A model generated the notes under the pieces. The model was not told where the DNA came from. It saw nothing but the letters and a program-made list of their open reading frames with translations, and did not search any database. Shown piece by piece: positions 54,117 through 63,727 of a stretch of 64,000 bases of DNA. This stretch comes from Rheinheimera sp. EpRS3 (GTDB taxonomy: Bacteria; Pseudomonadota; Gammaproteobacteria; Enterobacterales; Alteromonadaceae). Position 1 is the first letter of the stretch. Each line of letters begins with the position of its first letter. The translations under genes were made by a program, and so were the position numbers. Where the stretch lies: assembly GCF_001513785.1 (NCBI RefSeq), contig NZ_LNQS01000011.1:62001-126000 (forward strand). The letters are read 5' to 3'.

Positions 54117-54369
54117 CCCTGCGCCAGTATACTGATATAAATAACAATTTTTCTACATATCGAATTATCAGCAGCTATATTTTGATGCAATTGCTGCGCT
54201 AAACTGGCGCAGTCAACCTGCAGTCTCGATCACTAAGCTATGATTTTACTTGTGATCAGCATTGGTGCAGTTTATGCAGTACGTTAAGCATAAATTCAGT
54301 GTTGTTAATCATAATGCAACCTTCGTCGACTATAACCATCGGCTAACAAATGAGATTGAGTGCTACATA

Positions 54370-55254
54370 ATGCCAATGCATACACCCATGCGCGGCCTGC
54401 GTTGTTTTTGTGTCGCGGCAGACTGTTTAAGCTTTAAAGAAACGGCAAAACGGCTGTACCTGACACCCTCTGCGGTAAGCCACCAGATTAAACAGCTGGA
54501 AGACAACCTCAACCTGCAATTATTTGAACGTCAGACCCGTGCCATAGTGCTGACAGAAACCGGCAAACGTTTTTATCAATCTATTCAGCCGCTGATGCAG
54601 CAACTGGCCGCGACAATAGGCGAATTCAGCCAGGTACAACGGATGCTGGAAGTCAGTATTTCGATGCCCGAATTTTTTGCCAGTGAATTATTTGTGCCCC
54701 GGTTGATTGGCTGGTCAGAACAATACCCAAATATTAACCTGAAGCTGGAAACGGTAAAATCACGCCGCGACAGCCAGAAATACACCGATCTGTCGATTAT
54801 TCTGTCGGGTAAAAAGCCGGAAGAAAACATCTCCTACGATTTATTCCCCATCAGCTATGTACCAGCCTGCAATGCCCAGCAGTACCAGCAATGGCACAGT
54901 AAAGGCTATCGCATTCTGGAAAAGGTGCCGCTGCTGTTGCATCAGGCCCGCCCTTACGCCTGGCATCGCTGGGCAGAACACGTGGGGTATCATAATTTCA
55001 GGCCAAAACAAATTATCCAGCTGGACAGCATGTTCAGTGTAGCGCGCGCTGCACAGCAAGGCTTAGGTGTTGCGCTGATCCCGCTGCCTATCAGCAATGG
55101 CTGGTTCAGCAACGGCAGCCTGCAGCGTTTGTTCGAGCAAGAACTGCTTAGCCGCGATCGCTACTATCTGGTGCGGCACGACAACGATCCCCACCGCGAT
55201 GAAATTCAGTTGTTGATCGACTGGATCTTGCAAAGCTTTCATTTAGATAAGTAA
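54370..55254 (+). CDS. LysR-family transcriptional regulator
   Basis: 294 residues from the ATG at 54370; later in-frame ATGs at 54376 and 54388 are also possible. The winged helix-turn-helix is FKETAKRLYLTPSAVSHQIK with QLFERQTRAIVLTETG behind it, then a periplasmic-binding-type sensor domain. It follows mtnD after a 253-bp gap with no gene and ends in a strong terminator. Its target is unknown; neither the MetJ sites nor any T-N11-A pair I could confirm identifies it. Confidence 0.85.
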   Translation: MPMHTPMRGLRCFCVAADCLSFKETAKRLYLTPSAVSHQIKQLEDNLNLQLFERQTRAIVLTETGKRFYQSIQPLMQQLAATIGEFSQVQRMLEVSISMPEFFASELFVPRLIGWSEQYPNINLKLETVKSRRDSQKYTDLSIILSGKKPEENISYDLFPISYVPACNAQQYQQWHSKGYRILEKVPLLLHQARPYAWHRWAEHVGYHNFRPKQIIQLDSMFSVARAAQQGLGVALIPLPISNGWFSNGSLQRLFEQELLSRDRYYLVRHDNDPHRDEIQLLIDWILQSFHLDK

Positions 55255-55288
55255 ACTCCTCCCCTCTTTCGTTGTATGACAAACATTA

Positions 55289-55330
55289 GCGACTTATAGG
55301 TGAATTTATTTCACCTGTCGCATTTTTTTT
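55289..55330 (+). terminator. Intrinsic terminator of the LysR gene
   Basis: GCGAC (55289-55293) pairs with GTCGC (55317-55321), and AGGTGAA (55298-55304) with TTCACCT (55310-55316), giving a 12-bp stem with a small TTAT bulge. A run of eight T (55323-55330) follows. It begins 35 nt after the stop. Confidence 0.85.
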
Positions 55331-55419
55331 TATCGTTTGTCAAGTTTAGTGCTTTTGCTCAAACTTACACCTGCAGACCGATAGCGGCTGCCTGGATGGG
55401 AAATTGGGAGCAACACACT

Positions 55420-55944
55420 ATGAAAGCGAGATCAGTTAAATTAGGCAGTTCTTTGGCGTTGATGCTGATGGCCTCGGGTTCATTTCTCGCATCAGCCAAC
55501 ACCAATGGCTATAAAATGGTACTTATTGAAGATACTCCTGGCGTAGCCGCCTTACAGGCCGGCCAATTTGATCAGGGTATCAGCGAAACATTAAACAGCA
55601 GTGCAGAAGTAGATAACTTCTCACGTCAAATGAGCCTGTGCGTTGGCTTTACCAAAAGCGGCAAACTGGAGCAGGCATCAGGTGCATGCGACAGCGCGGT
55701 ATCTGCCTCACAGCAGTTTCACCAGGTTAGCAGCAGCGACAAGCGTGAAATGCGTGCTTACGCTCTGACTAACCGTGGCGTACTGCGCCTGTTACAAAAC
55801 AATAACCTGTCAGCACTGGCCGACTTTAAACGCGCAGCTGAGTTAAACCGCAGCGACGTAAATCAGCACAACCTGCAACGGTTAGAGTTAGCACTGAACA
55901 AAGCCAACAACGGCTTAGACATCGCGATGGTGTCAGCAGAGTAA
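55420..55944 (+). CDS. Secreted TPR-like hypothetical protein
   Basis: 174 residues from the ATG at 55420 (GGGAG 9 nt upstream). A signal peptide (SSLALMLMASGSFLASA) is followed by an all-helical part with TPR-like spacing: MSLCVGFTKSGKLEQASGAC, AYALTNRGVLRLLQNNNLSA and DFKRAAELNRSDVNQHNLQR. Two cysteines (in SLCVG and GACD) could pair. I do not recognise a named family. The 3' UTR that follows forms the hairpin array described separately. It has its own promoter, since the LysR terminator precedes it. Confidence 0.78.
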   Translation: MKARSVKLGSSLALMLMASGSFLASANTNGYKMVLIEDTPGVAALQAGQFDQGISETLNSSAEVDNFSRQMSLCVGFTKSGKLEQASGACDSAVSASQQFHQVSSSDKREMRAYALTNRGVLRLLQNNNLSALADFKRAAELNRSDVNQHNLQRLELALNKANNGLDIAMVSAE

Positions 55945-56114
55945 GTAACTTCTGCGATGTAACAGTAACAAAGGTTATTGCAGAGTAAGCGCCTGCATTA
56001 ACCTCAAAGGAAACAACCAGCAGTAAACAGAGTAAGCGCCTGTTTACTGCAACAAAGATTACACTCCCCCGTGTATGCAGAGTTACTACTCCCCGGTGTA
56101 ACTCTGCTTTTTTT
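55936..56114 (+). ncRNA. Candidate structured RNA / hairpin array in the 3' UTR of the TPR-like gene
   Basis: Four inverted repeats in a row. (1) AGGTTATTGCAG (55972-55983) pairs with CTGCATTAACCT (55993-56004), 12 bp with one mismatch. (2) GCAGTAAACAG (56020-56030) pairs with CTGTTTACTGC (56040-56050), 11 bp perfect. Both loops are the same nine bases, AGTAAGCGC (55984-55992 and 56031-56039), within an identical CAG-AGTAAGCGC-CTG, while the outer stems differ in sequence but each is self-complementary. (3) TACAC / GTGTA (56060-56075) presents loop TCCCCC. (4) GCAGAGTTAC / GTAACTCTGC with loop containing TACTCCCC is the terminator. A smaller GCAGA/TCTGC stem spans the stop codon (55936-55955). 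I infer a processed or independent regulatory RNA; no promoter inside it was identified. Confidence 0.55.
56077..56114 (+). terminator. Intrinsic terminator after the hairpin array
   Basis: GCAGAGTTAC (56077-56086) pairs perfectly with GTAACTCTGC (56098-56107) around an 11-nt loop, TACTCCCCGGT, followed by TTTTTTT (56108-56114). This is the 3' end of the TPR-like gene transcript. Confidence 0.9.
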
Positions 56115-56157
56115 ATTTGTGCCCGATAAAACATCATGGCAACGACTGCAACAGCCG

Positions 56158-57183
56158 TTAAGCAAACTGCTTTAACACCCCGGCGGCGATATCAGCTTGT
56201 GAGTAAACGCCGGTATCCAGCACCCAGCCGGTAACTAACGCCGCGGGTGTTACATCAAACGCCGGGTTAAATACCACCGCATCTTCCGGTGCCCAAATCG
56301 CTGTGCCAAAAGCTCCGCTGACACCGCGAACTTCATCACCATGGCGTTGCTCAATCGGTATAGCGCTGCCGTCACTGCAGGCTAAGTCTACCGTGGTATG
56401 CGGTGCCACCACATAAAATGGCACCTTGTGATAATGTGCCAGCACCGCCAGCGAGTAAGTACCGACTTTATTAGCGAAGTCACCGTTGGCGGCGATGCGA
56501 TCGGAGCCGACAAAAATACGGTCGACCTGACCGCGGGCCATTAGCATGGCGGCCATATTGTCACAAATAAGCTGATATGGAATACCCAACTGCTGACATT
56601 CCCACGCCGTTAAACGCCCGCCCTGCAGCAATGGCCGGGTTTCATCTACCCACAGGCGGATATTTTTACCCTGCTGATGTGCCAGATTAATTACGCCGAG
56701 GGCAGTACCTACACCAGCTGTGGCCAGGCCTCCGGTATTGCAGTGCGTTAACAGCTGTTCGCCCTGCTGTACCAAAGCGGCGCCATGGCGCGCCATATTC
56801 AGGCATAGTTGTACATCTTCAGCGAACAGTTGCCCGGCACAGTCAATAGCAGCCGTTTTAAAATCACTCTGTGCCAGTGCTGCTATCATGCTGTCGAGGT
56901 TATTCATCAGGTTAACTGCCGTAGGCCGGGCTGCACGCAGCACTTCTGCATCCAGTAACAACTGCTCACGGCTGTCGCCCACGCTGGCCCTGTAGGCCAA
57001 TAATAAACAAGCACCAATACCAATAGCAGGCGCACCGCGTAACTGTAGTGCTTTAATCATGGTAACCATGTCGTTAACTGTATGGCACAGAAGCCATTTT
57101 TGTTGTTGTGGCAATAAGGTCTGATCCAGCACATACAATTCACCCTGTATGGTTTTCAGGCTGAGTGCCGTTAAGTTTTTCAT
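56158..57183 (-). CDS. mtnA: Methylthioribose-1-phosphate isomerase MtnA
   Basis: 341 residues, ATG at 57183 with AGGAA upstream. Family signatures: [20 protein letters not shown] with the catalytic Cys, [18 protein letters not shown] and [20 protein letters not shown] with the catalytic Asp. It converts MTR-1-P into MTRu-1-P, which feeds MtnB. Divergent from mtnK with a perfect met box between them. Its 3' end faces the hairpin array across 43 nt. Confidence 0.96.
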
Positions 57184-61483: not shown

Positions 61484-63727
61484 ATGAAGCTATTTACTAA
61501 GTCGGTGTTGTCAGCGGCCATTCAGGCCGGCCTGTTTAGTGCAGCTGTTGGTTTTTCTCCTGTGTTACTGGCACAGGAAAGTGACAAAGACCAAAGCGGC
61601 AAGCAGCAGGAACTGGAAACCATTACTGTTACCGCGCAAAAGCGCAGCCAGAGTATTCAGGAAGTGCCAATCTCTATCGCCACCCTGTCCGGCGAGAAGT
61701 TTGACACCATTTTCTCTTCCGGTGATGACATTACAGCTTTGGCCATTAAGGTGCCAGGCCTGTATGCCGAAACCTCTAACGGTCGTGCGGCACCACGTTT
61801 TTATATCCGTGGTTTGGGTAATACTGATTTTGACTTAGCTGCATCACAACCGGTGTCCATTATTATGGATGACGTGGTGATGGAAAACGTGATTTTAAAA
61901 AGCTTCCCGCTGTTTGATGTGCAACAGGTAGAAGTGATCCGCGGCCCGCAAGGTACACTATTTGGCCGTAACACTACAGCCGGTATTATCAAATTTGACA
62001 GCGTAAAGCCAACCCAGGATTTTGATGCCTATGTTAAATCTACCGCCGGCACCCTCGGTATGTTTAACCTGGAAGGCGCTGTGGGTGGCGGTTTAACCGA
62101 TGAACTCTCTGCACGTATGTCACTGTTATCACAGCATCGCAGTAACTGGGTAGACAACAGCTACACCGGCGAAAGCGACGTTATGGGTGGTTACAATGAA
62201 CGCGCCGGCCGGTTACAGTTTTTGTATGAAACAGCCGACTTCGATGCGCTGTTAAATGTACATTCCCGCAATTACGACGGCACATCGAGCCTGTTTCGCA
62301 AAAATATTCTGACTCCGGGCAGCGACAAGCTAAACGAAAATTATGATCGCGATACGGTGGCTTATGACGCTGATGGCTACAATCGCCAGAGTTACGATGC
62401 CTGGGGCGCCTCACTGAAGTTTGACTTCCGCTTTGATGGCATGACACTTACCAGCATTTCAGCACTGGAGCGCGCAGATGGCGGCGGTATTGGCGATATT
62501 GACGGTGGCAATCCCGGCCAGGCCGGTCCTGCTAACCCGGACAATGCGGTCACTGAAGATCAGTTAAAAGATTTAAAACAGTATACTCAGGAAATCCGTC
62601 TGGCCAGCGACACCTCTGGTCCGCTAAGCTGGCAGGCCGGTGGTTTTTACTTCGACTCAACCTTTGGTGTAAACAGTATTGACGGTTTCTTCGGTGCCAC
62701 TGAAGTGTTCCACGGCAATACCAGTTGGGCGCTGTTTGGCCAAACTACCTATAAATTCACCGATAAACTGGATGTTACCGCCGGTATCCGTTATACCGAC
62801 GATGTAAAAACCTTCTCGGTAGGCCAGCAAAATGTTGACGGCTTTGCTCTGGTTATCGGCGCAGCACAAATTCAGCAGTATGATCCCATCAAGGTATCTG
62901 ACGACCAAATCAGCTGGGAGCTAAGCGCCAACTACCGTTTAACCGATAAAACCAGCTTATTTGCCCGTGTGGCAGAAGGTTTCCGTGCCCAGTCTATTCA
63001 GGGCCGTGATGTGGCGTTTGAAGCACCGCCGTCAGTCGCTGATTCAGAAACCATTACGTCATTTGAAGTGGGCGCTAAATCAGACTTACTGGACAACACC
63101 TTGCGCCTCAATGGTGCGGTATTTTACTACACCATTGACGACATTCAGTTATCTGCCATTGGGGGTGAAACCCAAGGCAACCAGCTGATTAATGCTGACA
63201 AAGGCGTCGGTTACGGCTTTGAGGTTGACTTTGATTACCGCGTGCTGACCAACCTGAGCCTGGGCGGCGGTTTTAGCTACAATAAAACCGAACTGAAAGA
63301 CGACAACTTAACAGTAGCACCATGCGGCTCTGGCCTGTGTACCGTGCTTGACCCGCTTAACGCGCAGGATTTAGCACTGATCAACGGTAACCCGTTCCCG
63401 CAGGCGCCAAAAACTATTCTGACGTTAAACGCGCGCTATGATTTCCCGGTACAGGGTGGTGAGATTTATGTTTACGGCGATTATCAGTTACAGGGCAAAA
63501 CCAACCTGTTTTTGTATGAATCAGCCGAGTTTAAATCAAACAACAACTACGAAGCCGGTTTACGCCTAGCCTATGTTAATTACGACAGTAATTACGAAGT
63601 AGGTGTGTTTGGCCGTAATATTACTGATCAGGACAACCTGAAAGGTGCTATCGACTTTAGCAACCTGACTGGTTTTGTTAACGAGCCTCGCACCTTTGGT
63701 GTTGATTTTAAAATCAGCTTTTATTAA
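61484..63727 (+). CDS. TonB-dependent receptor
   Basis: 747 residues, ATG at 61484. A signal peptide (VLSAAIQAGLFSAAVGFSPV then LLA) is followed by the TonB box ETITVTAQKR, a plug (EVPISIATLSGEKF, RFYIRGLGNTDFDLAASQPV, VQQVEVIRGPQGTLFGRN) and a beta barrel that ends in KISFY with terminal aromatic. It imports a scarce ligand across the outer membrane using proton-motive force. Its CIRCA-like repertoire (no siderophore cassette nearby) leaves the ligand unknown; sugars, thiamin-like compounds or metals are all possible. A single extracellular disulfide is likely (APCGSGLCTV). Confidence 0.92.
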   Translation: MKLFTKSVLSAAIQAGLFSAAVGFSPVLLAQESDKDQSGKQQELETITVTAQKRSQSIQEVPISIATLSGEKFDTIFSSGDDITALAIKVPGLYAETSNGRAAPRFYIRGLGNTDFDLAASQPVSIIMDDVVMENVILKSFPLFDVQQVEVIRGPQGTLFGRNTTAGIIKFDSVKPTQDFDAYVKSTAGTLGMFNLEGAVGGGLTDELSARMSLLSQHRSNWVDNSYTGESDVMGGYNERAGRLQFLYETADFDALLNVHSRNYDGTSSLFRKNILTPGSDKLNENYDRDTVAYDADGYNRQSYDAWGASLKFDFRFDGMTLTSISALERADGGGIGDIDGGNPGQAGPANPDNAVTEDQLKDLKQYTQEIRLASDTSGPLSWQAGGFYFDSTFGVNSIDGFFGATEVFHGNTSWALFGQTTYKFTDKLDVTAGIRYTDDVKTFSVGQQNVDGFALVIGAAQIQQYDPIKVSDDQISWELSANYRLTDKTSLFARVAEGFRAQSIQGRDVAFEAPPSVADSETITSFEVGAKSDLLDNTLRLNGAVFYYTIDDIQLSAIGGETQGNQLINADKGVGYGFEVDFDYRVLTNLSLGGGFSYNKTELKDDNLTVAPCGSGLCTVLDPLNAQDLALINGNPFPQAPKTILTLNARYDFPVQGGEIYVYGDYQLQGKTNLFLYESAEFKSNNNYEAGLRLAYVNYDSNYEVGVFGRNITDQDNLKGAIDFSNLTGFVNEPRTFGVDFKISFY

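Follow-up and report, generated by a model that had tools for sequence, protein, structure and literature searches.

The nearest worked example for an RNA with C-rich loops is LhrC of Listeria, in which, according to the available part of the report, a stem loop and the terminator loop both contain UCCC, and both motifs bind a G-rich sequence ahead of the start codon of an mRNA (PMC4132741). A C/U-rich terminator loop that pairs with G-rich targets is described for RepG of Helicobacter in an excerpt of a second report (PMC8295292). Other small RNAs are derived from the 3' ends of mRNAs, and the accessible portion of a third source lists CpxQ, which spans almost the whole 3' UTR of cpxP, OppZ and NarS among them (PMC9438474). 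In Xanthomonas, the 3' UTR of a periplasmic protein's mRNA is the source from which RsmU is processed, an RNA that is confined to one genus and binds a global RNA-binding protein; the same partial text states that it carries GGA motifs and binds RsmA, and that binding was also reported after a change of the motif (PMC7694677). The pan motif consists, as its excerpted description has it, of stems with conserved bulged A residues, which mostly occur in tandem and for which binding of a dimeric protein has been suggested (PMC2864571).

An element that can be compared with these RNAs lies behind a gene for a TPR-like protein in Rheinheimera sp. EpRS3. The window, which is the whole stretch of 64,000 nucleotides that was analysed (positions 62,001 to 126,000 of contig NZ_LNQS01000011.1), contains the following features:

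55337..55419, forward strand: upstream element TTTGTC, promoter-like pair and 5' leader with the Shine-Dalgarno sequence of the TPR-like gene
55420..55944, forward strand: TPR-like gene (open frame), 174 aa, candidate exported product; its mRNA bears the array
55936..55955, forward strand: weak stop-codon hairpin GCAGAG-TAAGTAAC-TTCTGC with TAA in the loop (fold)
55972..56004, forward strand: array hairpin 1, tip AGTAAGCGC at 55984-55992 (fold, comparison)
56020..56050, forward strand: array hairpin 2, tip AGTAAGCGC at 56031-56039 (fold, comparison)
56060..56075, forward strand: C-loop hairpin TACAC-TCCCCC-GTGTA (word match in 14/14 carriers)
56077..56114, forward strand: intrinsic terminator with a C-rich loop and a 7-T tail (fold and conservation)

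The array region folds at -58.2 kcal/mol, compared with -36.6 +/- 3.9 kcal/mol for dinucleotide shuffles (z -5.6; none of 200 shuffles as low), and hairpins 1 and 2, each folded alone, were better than all 200 letter shuffles. The stem of hairpin 1 has 12 positions with one mismatch and that of hairpin 2 has 11 perfect pairs, as the original prediction had counted them; its description of two hairpins with identical AGUAAGCGC tips on different outer stems, followed in the 3' direction by two C-rich loops and a terminator, proved accurate as well. The core of the C-loop hairpin, ACAC-TCCCCC-GTGT, occupies 56061-56074, and the terminator consists of a hairpin part (56077-56107) and seven T (56108-56114). 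The exposed loops predicted in the window, UCCCCC in the C-loop hairpin and CCCC, provide a motif of the UCCC type. The array resembles LhrC in that both a stem loop and the loop of the terminator carry such motifs; as described there, however, LhrC is a multicopy small RNA and not a 3' UTR product, the available text mentions no AGUAAGCGC hairpins (PMC4132741), and no sequence relation between the two was found by way of Rfam. RepG differs from the array in that, in its excerpt, it is transcribed from an intergenic region. CpxQ, OppZ and NarS are, like the array, RNAs from the 3' end of an mRNA, but no repeated identical tips are described for them in the part of the source at hand (PMC9438474). 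As a genus-limited 3' UTR RNA, RsmU is similar and, as far as its excerpt goes, shows that such a fragment can bind a global regulator; RsmU has GGA motifs, whereas the near-invariant tip of the array is devoid of GGA. The pan motif is found, according to the same excerpted description, upstream of pantothenate operons, unlike the array, which has no Rfam match.

The block of tip hairpins, C-loop hairpin and terminator is present in 14 of the 31 genomes of the genus, always directly behind the TPR-like gene. Homologues of this gene occur in 28 of the 31 genus genomes and in 77 of 196 family genomes, and the 3' regions of 51 loci were read (28 in the genus and 23 in other genera), with only 39 bases of sequence after the stop codon at L040. 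The carriers are the 14 closest TPR homologues (80-100% identity). The remaining 14 homologues of the genus (39-54% identity) lack the tip, the C-loop hairpin and this terminator; eight of them (L019-L026) end in a short GC-rich terminator hairpin. The block is also absent behind the 23 homologues of other genera as far as their sequence reached. In a protein tree of 36 rows, the 14 carriers lie on one side of a branch with a support of 98/92, so that one gain suffices to explain the distribution.

With a model of the array core, 14 of the 395 family genomes were recovered, all at E 1.2e-14 or better, and in a search of the genus the hairpin model R1 recovered the 14 carriers at E 2.7e-9 or better, the best value among the other 17 genomes being 0.016. 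On the window, R1 scores hairpin 1 at E 7.7e-11 and hairpin 2 at E 4.3e-11, both of which are rows of its own training set; for G205 and G166, whose hairpin windows overlap, it reports one of the two hairpins. Since both models were built from carriers, these strong scores show only that nothing else resembles the carriers. The remaining 381 family genomes and the other 17 genus genomes contain no convincing array match, and the one further weak match of the core model, L133 (E 0.068), contains neither a tip word nor a C-hairpin word in the 150 bases on either side of its centre. Comparing relatives with covariance models, as had been proposed, thus gave a strongly positive result. Six of 394 genomes matched at E <= 0.001 in an order-wide search; three are carriers, and the other three matches (L142-L144) were rejected and lie under open frames of at least 470 codons. 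Rfam 15 gave no match above the gathering cut-off in the window and in five of the 13 other carriers, and a permissive setting returned a single match at chance level, to U12 on the opposite strand (E 9.8). The titles and opening lines of abstracts in the Rheinheimera small-RNA and RNA-seq literature that was searched do not contain the element. We regard the array as a new candidate RNA family without an Rfam 15 match, which is of a known general kind and has an unusual repeated, near-invariant tip.

The 14 genomes contain 30 intact tip hairpins, one to three per genome. Covariation was measured in 27 distinct 35-base hairpin windows, many of them from close relatives; rough clustering gives six stem groups. 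Of 297 stem cells 88.2% are paired; shuffles gave 59.6% (0 of 500 as high), and slid controls did not exceed 48.1%. Changes on both sides affect 97 cells, compared with 37.3 by shuffling (again 0 of 500 as high). Two of the five measures were not above the shuffles: further pair types showed no excess (26 vs 26.4), and the 10 of 11 pairs with changes on both sides were reached by 26 of 500 shuffles. When the 30 array hairpins were folded alone, 19 beat all 200 letter shuffles and 11 were matched by 1 to 17 of them. The near-invariant stretch is G-AGTAAGC[GA]C-C, of which nine bases form the tip. In a 14-row alignment of the core, differences amount to 1.6% in the tip, 44% in the outer stem, 54% in the linker and 8.5% in the C-hairpin; among the 27 hairpins, the tip differs at 0.8% of the compared sites and the outer stem at 66%. 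This disparity speaks against a simple barrier at the transcript end, i.e., an exonuclease block or a terminator for the facing gene, in which identical tips would be recent duplicates, because recent duplication alone is insufficient to explain it. Stable hairpins at a 3' end would suit such a barrier, and a terminator scan reports the reverse strand of hairpin 2 (56050-56020) as a terminator-like site that faces mtnA transcripts; however, mtnA is not always the neighbour, and we consider a barrier highly improbable. Compensatory stem changes and conserved unpaired bases, as expected of a structured RNA, were found together, and at the level of sequence comparison the pattern points to selection on both pairing and the exact tip. 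The same claim in the original prediction is strongly supported by the comparison of 14 genomes. The array is a compact bacterial RNA element of one genus branch whose nine-base tip was kept while its stems turned over. A wobble test in 22 distinct stems gave 10 G-T or T-G against 8 C-A or A-C, and the strand of the array is assigned because of the gene and the terminator, not because of these counts.

The tip is predicted to fold as G-A(bulge)-GU-AAGC-GC-C, with a bulged A and two inner pairs, and its single varying column, which changed once from G to A, turns the inner pair U-G into U-A, as the bulged-A model allows. The operator hairpin bound by the coat protein of RNA phages also has a bulged A, two pairs and a four-base loop. 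The loop of the array, AAGC, is not the phage loop, however, and nothing points to a coat-like protein. A bulged A, two pairs and a four-base loop would be a plausible protein site, and it is conceivable, though unlikely, that the hairpins mainly serve as a sponge of the CsrB or RsmU kind, which titrates an RNA-binding protein recognising G-A-GU-AAGC-GC-C. The near-invariant tip, the differing stems and the repeated copies fit a sponge, for which RsmU is a precedent in the excerpt cited (PMC7694677). However, no second locus with full tip and stem is present among the sites read, hence no regulon to titrate is visible, although partial-tip hairpins do exist at L135, L137 and L140. In addition, GGAG occurs in only 6 of the 27 hairpins, so that GGA is not a conserved loop, and L018 has one intact hairpin only, plus a further copy with a decayed tip.

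The suspicion that the loops might be only parts of a DNA repeat family was not borne out, as the full tip with its stem was seen at one locus per carrier genome. The genome of the window contains 28 sites with up to two mismatches from the 15-mer (6 for the reversed control), all of which were read in considering a DNA repeat, which was rejected; except in the two array copies, the consecutive pairs beside the tip number four at most, and copies at several unlinked loci, the mark of a dispersed repeat, were not found. Seven weak extra R1 matches were also read, to the exclusion of those at E above 0.1 and in array-less genomes: five lie in long open frames, L137 at the start of one and L135 between genes. 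L135 (G214, near 1767-1800, R1 E 7.2e-4) is an 11-bp hairpin, CTCACAGCAGAGTAAGTTCTGCTGTGAG, with half of the array tip; it holds AGTAAG but lacks GCGC, and L137 and L140 hold GAGTAAG. The three partial-tip hairpins are treated as chance, without proof. Tip-like words without matching flanks are present at L018 (+534) and L033-L035 (-590).

The tip complement GCGCTTACT is commoner than its reversed control, with 68 vs 6 sites in the genome of the window (G000) and 70 vs 13 in G198. Leaving out the two array sites, 66 of the 68 were classed by open frames only; they lie mostly in long open frames, and no clear ribosome-binding-site target was seen among them. Six sites of G000 are located outside long frames, and Rfam gave no match at these six loci. 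A perfect palindrome, GTAAGCGCTTAC, lies outside long open frames at L246 (contig C8 of the same genome, near 713365) and is of the kind bound by LacI-type regulators. The frequency of GCGCTTACT and the palindromic copy could be explained by a DNA-level feature, i.e., a dispersed repeat, a transposon-linked hairpin or operator half-sites, GTAAGCGC being half of GTAAGCGCTTAC. This explanation is largely refuted and has very little probability left: full hairpins were seen at one locus per carrier, and the stems keep their complementarity over 11 pairs despite sequence change, which an operator does not need. Furthermore, viral contigs with the 15-mer are rarely paired and plasmids gave no match at E 1e-5. 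A phage origin was considered and rejected; only 2 of 49 viral contigs with the exact 15-mer show at least six consecutive pairs beside it, and 3 of the 49 carry it in a 54-base repeat.

In every one of the 14 carriers, the array follows the stop codon of the TPR-like gene and precedes an intrinsic terminator, which is the position of a 3' UTR-derived small RNA. A consensus scan of 55240-56200 revealed no promoter-like site, but the scan also missed the promoter-like pair of the gene itself, so that its silence over the array carries little weight. Within the gene, synonymous change reaches its maximum over the last seven codons (0.55), and the sequence that follows the stop codon varies as well (0.46 in a gapped alignment), which makes a conserved promoter just before the array unlikely. 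Together, the lack of a promoter-like site and of a synonymous drop at the gene end favour release from the mRNA. The original prediction allowed for an RNA either cut from the TPR-like mRNA or made beside it; the latter, taken as transcription from a promoter of its own, received no support from the synonymous change or from the scan, weak as that is, while the position fits the former, for which we infer the release itself.

Ranked first, with a chance that we put at about even, is a reading in which the TPR-like mRNA has a structured 3' UTR specific to one clade, and this 3' UTR is processed to a small RNA with C-rich anti-Shine-Dalgarno loops. Transcription would start at the TPR gene's own promoter, and a cut of the 3' end in the variable spacers would yield a small RNA of roughly 95-170 nt in the window, to whose U-tailed terminator Hfq or ProQ might bind. 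Its two C-rich loops would pair with G-rich ribosome-binding sites of other mRNAs, thereby masking the Shine-Dalgarno sequence. The AGUAAGCGC hairpins may be docking sites for a putative RNA-binding protein or RNA, and their usual presence in several copies would provide avidity or redundancy. Next in rank, possible but clearly less probable, is a cis-acting 3' UTR element without a free small RNA, the hairpins of which bind a protein controlling stability, translation or localisation of the TPR-like mRNA. Indeed, the array is tied to one gene in 14/14 carriers and lies inside its transcript, an internal promoter was not recognised, and the leader and first codons of the gene are also unusually conserved. 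However, the first codons have low synonymous change in the array-less clade as well. Moreover, relatives within the genus that lack the array have retained the gene, which in eight of them (L019-L026) ends in a plain short terminator; thus, the array is not needed for expression in general. A cis-acting element would also leave the C-rich terminator loop without explanation.

For the small RNA ranked first, we infer that it is the C-rich loops that would pair with Shine-Dalgarno regions; their common core is too short for a useful genome-wide target prediction. ACAC[CT][CT]CCCCGTGT, the C-rich loops and a tail of 6-8 T are present in 14/14 carriers, and the C-loop hairpin and the terminator hairpin resemble each other in sequence by our own reading. 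The four inner pairs of the C-hairpin are invariant, and the outer one varies on one side only and is broken in one row, giving no covariation support. In the 14-row alignment of the terminator, 3 of 10 predicted pairs change on both sides, one of them in a gapped loop region; a mechanical scan did not list the terminator at 56077-56114, the assignment of which relies on fold and conservation. Predicted pairing of the 3' UTR with the leader of the same gene did not exceed chance in 12 of 14 genomes, where between 16 and 57 of 100 shuffles were as low; the corresponding counts were 2 of 100 for L013 and 9 of 100 for L016.

The sequence around the stop codon suggests, without proof, that the array grew from a stop-codon hairpin. 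Together with its closing G, the tip reads GAGTAAGC, and eight of the 14 carriers (L005-L010, L012, L017) have GA(G/A)TAAG at the gene end. GAATAAGC is found there in L012 and L017 only among the carriers, and in seven of the 14 array-less genus relatives (L019-L025). L011, L014, L015 and L018 share GA(G/A)TAA, and the gene ends of L013 and L016, GACTAGCC, do not fit the tip. As GA(G/A)TAA is a glutamate codon followed by a stop codon, the resemblance is modest. The stop-codon hairpin of the window is weak (14 of 200 shuffles as low), that of L012 has a 10-bp stem with the loop AATAAGCA (0 of 200 as low), and seven others were matched by 5 to 54 of 200 shuffles. R1 matches weakly over the stop codon in 4 of 14 carriers (G197, E 0.011; G202, 0.028; G204, 0.038; G215, 0.67). 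A duplicated stop-codon hairpin, with its context GA(G/A)TAAG(C), may have given rise to the tip, and if this origin is true, it illustrates how the end of a coding gene can develop into a 3' UTR regulator. In a bolder and improbable version, the AGUAAGCGC hairpins, duplicated from the stop-codon hairpin, would be a new code for an undescribed RNA-binding regulator and would be combined with two anti-Shine-Dalgarno loops in one 3' UTR-derived RNA, giving a regulator with two heads that is released along with an exported protein. Once found, the tip's partner could reveal a new RNA-binding specificity.

The 174-aa protein has a TPR_1 match with E 1.4e-5 and 25.2 bits, which is below the Pfam gathering score of 27.8, and, with its N-terminus judged by eye, is probably exported. 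A promoter-like pair, TTGTCA-17-CAAACT, was read by eye at 55337-55365 and adjoins TTTGTC[AG], which is found up to 200 bases upstream of the TPR gene in 50 of the 51 loci read. A gene for a LysR-type regulator lies directly upstream of the TPR-like gene (the pair covers 54262-55944 of the window), and the pair recurs in 42 of the 51 loci at 53-100% identity. The lysR-TPR pair and the upstream TTTGTC[AG] (50/51) suggest a conserved regulatory module. Downstream, mtnA is located within about 1.5 kb in 9 of 14 carriers and also adjoins the array-less TPR copies in L020 and L023; the placement inside a methionine salvage locus therefore holds for the window but is incidental. Overall, the observation in the original prediction is confirmed, on stronger grounds than the window alone could offer, and its interpretation is supported in part. 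Neither lysR nor mtnA has a match within 1.5 kb of the TPR-like gene in L013 and L016, and the array keeps its place behind this gene even where both neighbours differ, as in these two. A threonine dehydratase-like open frame, assigned by eye, is present upstream of the TPR-like gene in both, and an ABC-transporter-like frame lies downstream of the array in L013.

In other genera, a small ORF of 30-59 aa with a conserved (S/A)QW(D/N) follows the TPR-like gene within 420 bases in 16 of 23 loci (L033-L037, L043-L048 and L050-L054), compared with 0 of 28 loci of the genus; three of these ORFs gave no Pfam match at E <= 1. The 5' leader of the gene is similar in 13 of 14 carriers, that of L015 being the most divergent. 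It contains a hairpin at 55373-55391, GCAG-A-CCG-AUAG-CGG-CUGC, which carries an unpaired A. The corresponding hairpin of L018, GCAG-A-CCA-AACA-UGG-CUGC, shows a compensatory change and keeps the unpaired A.
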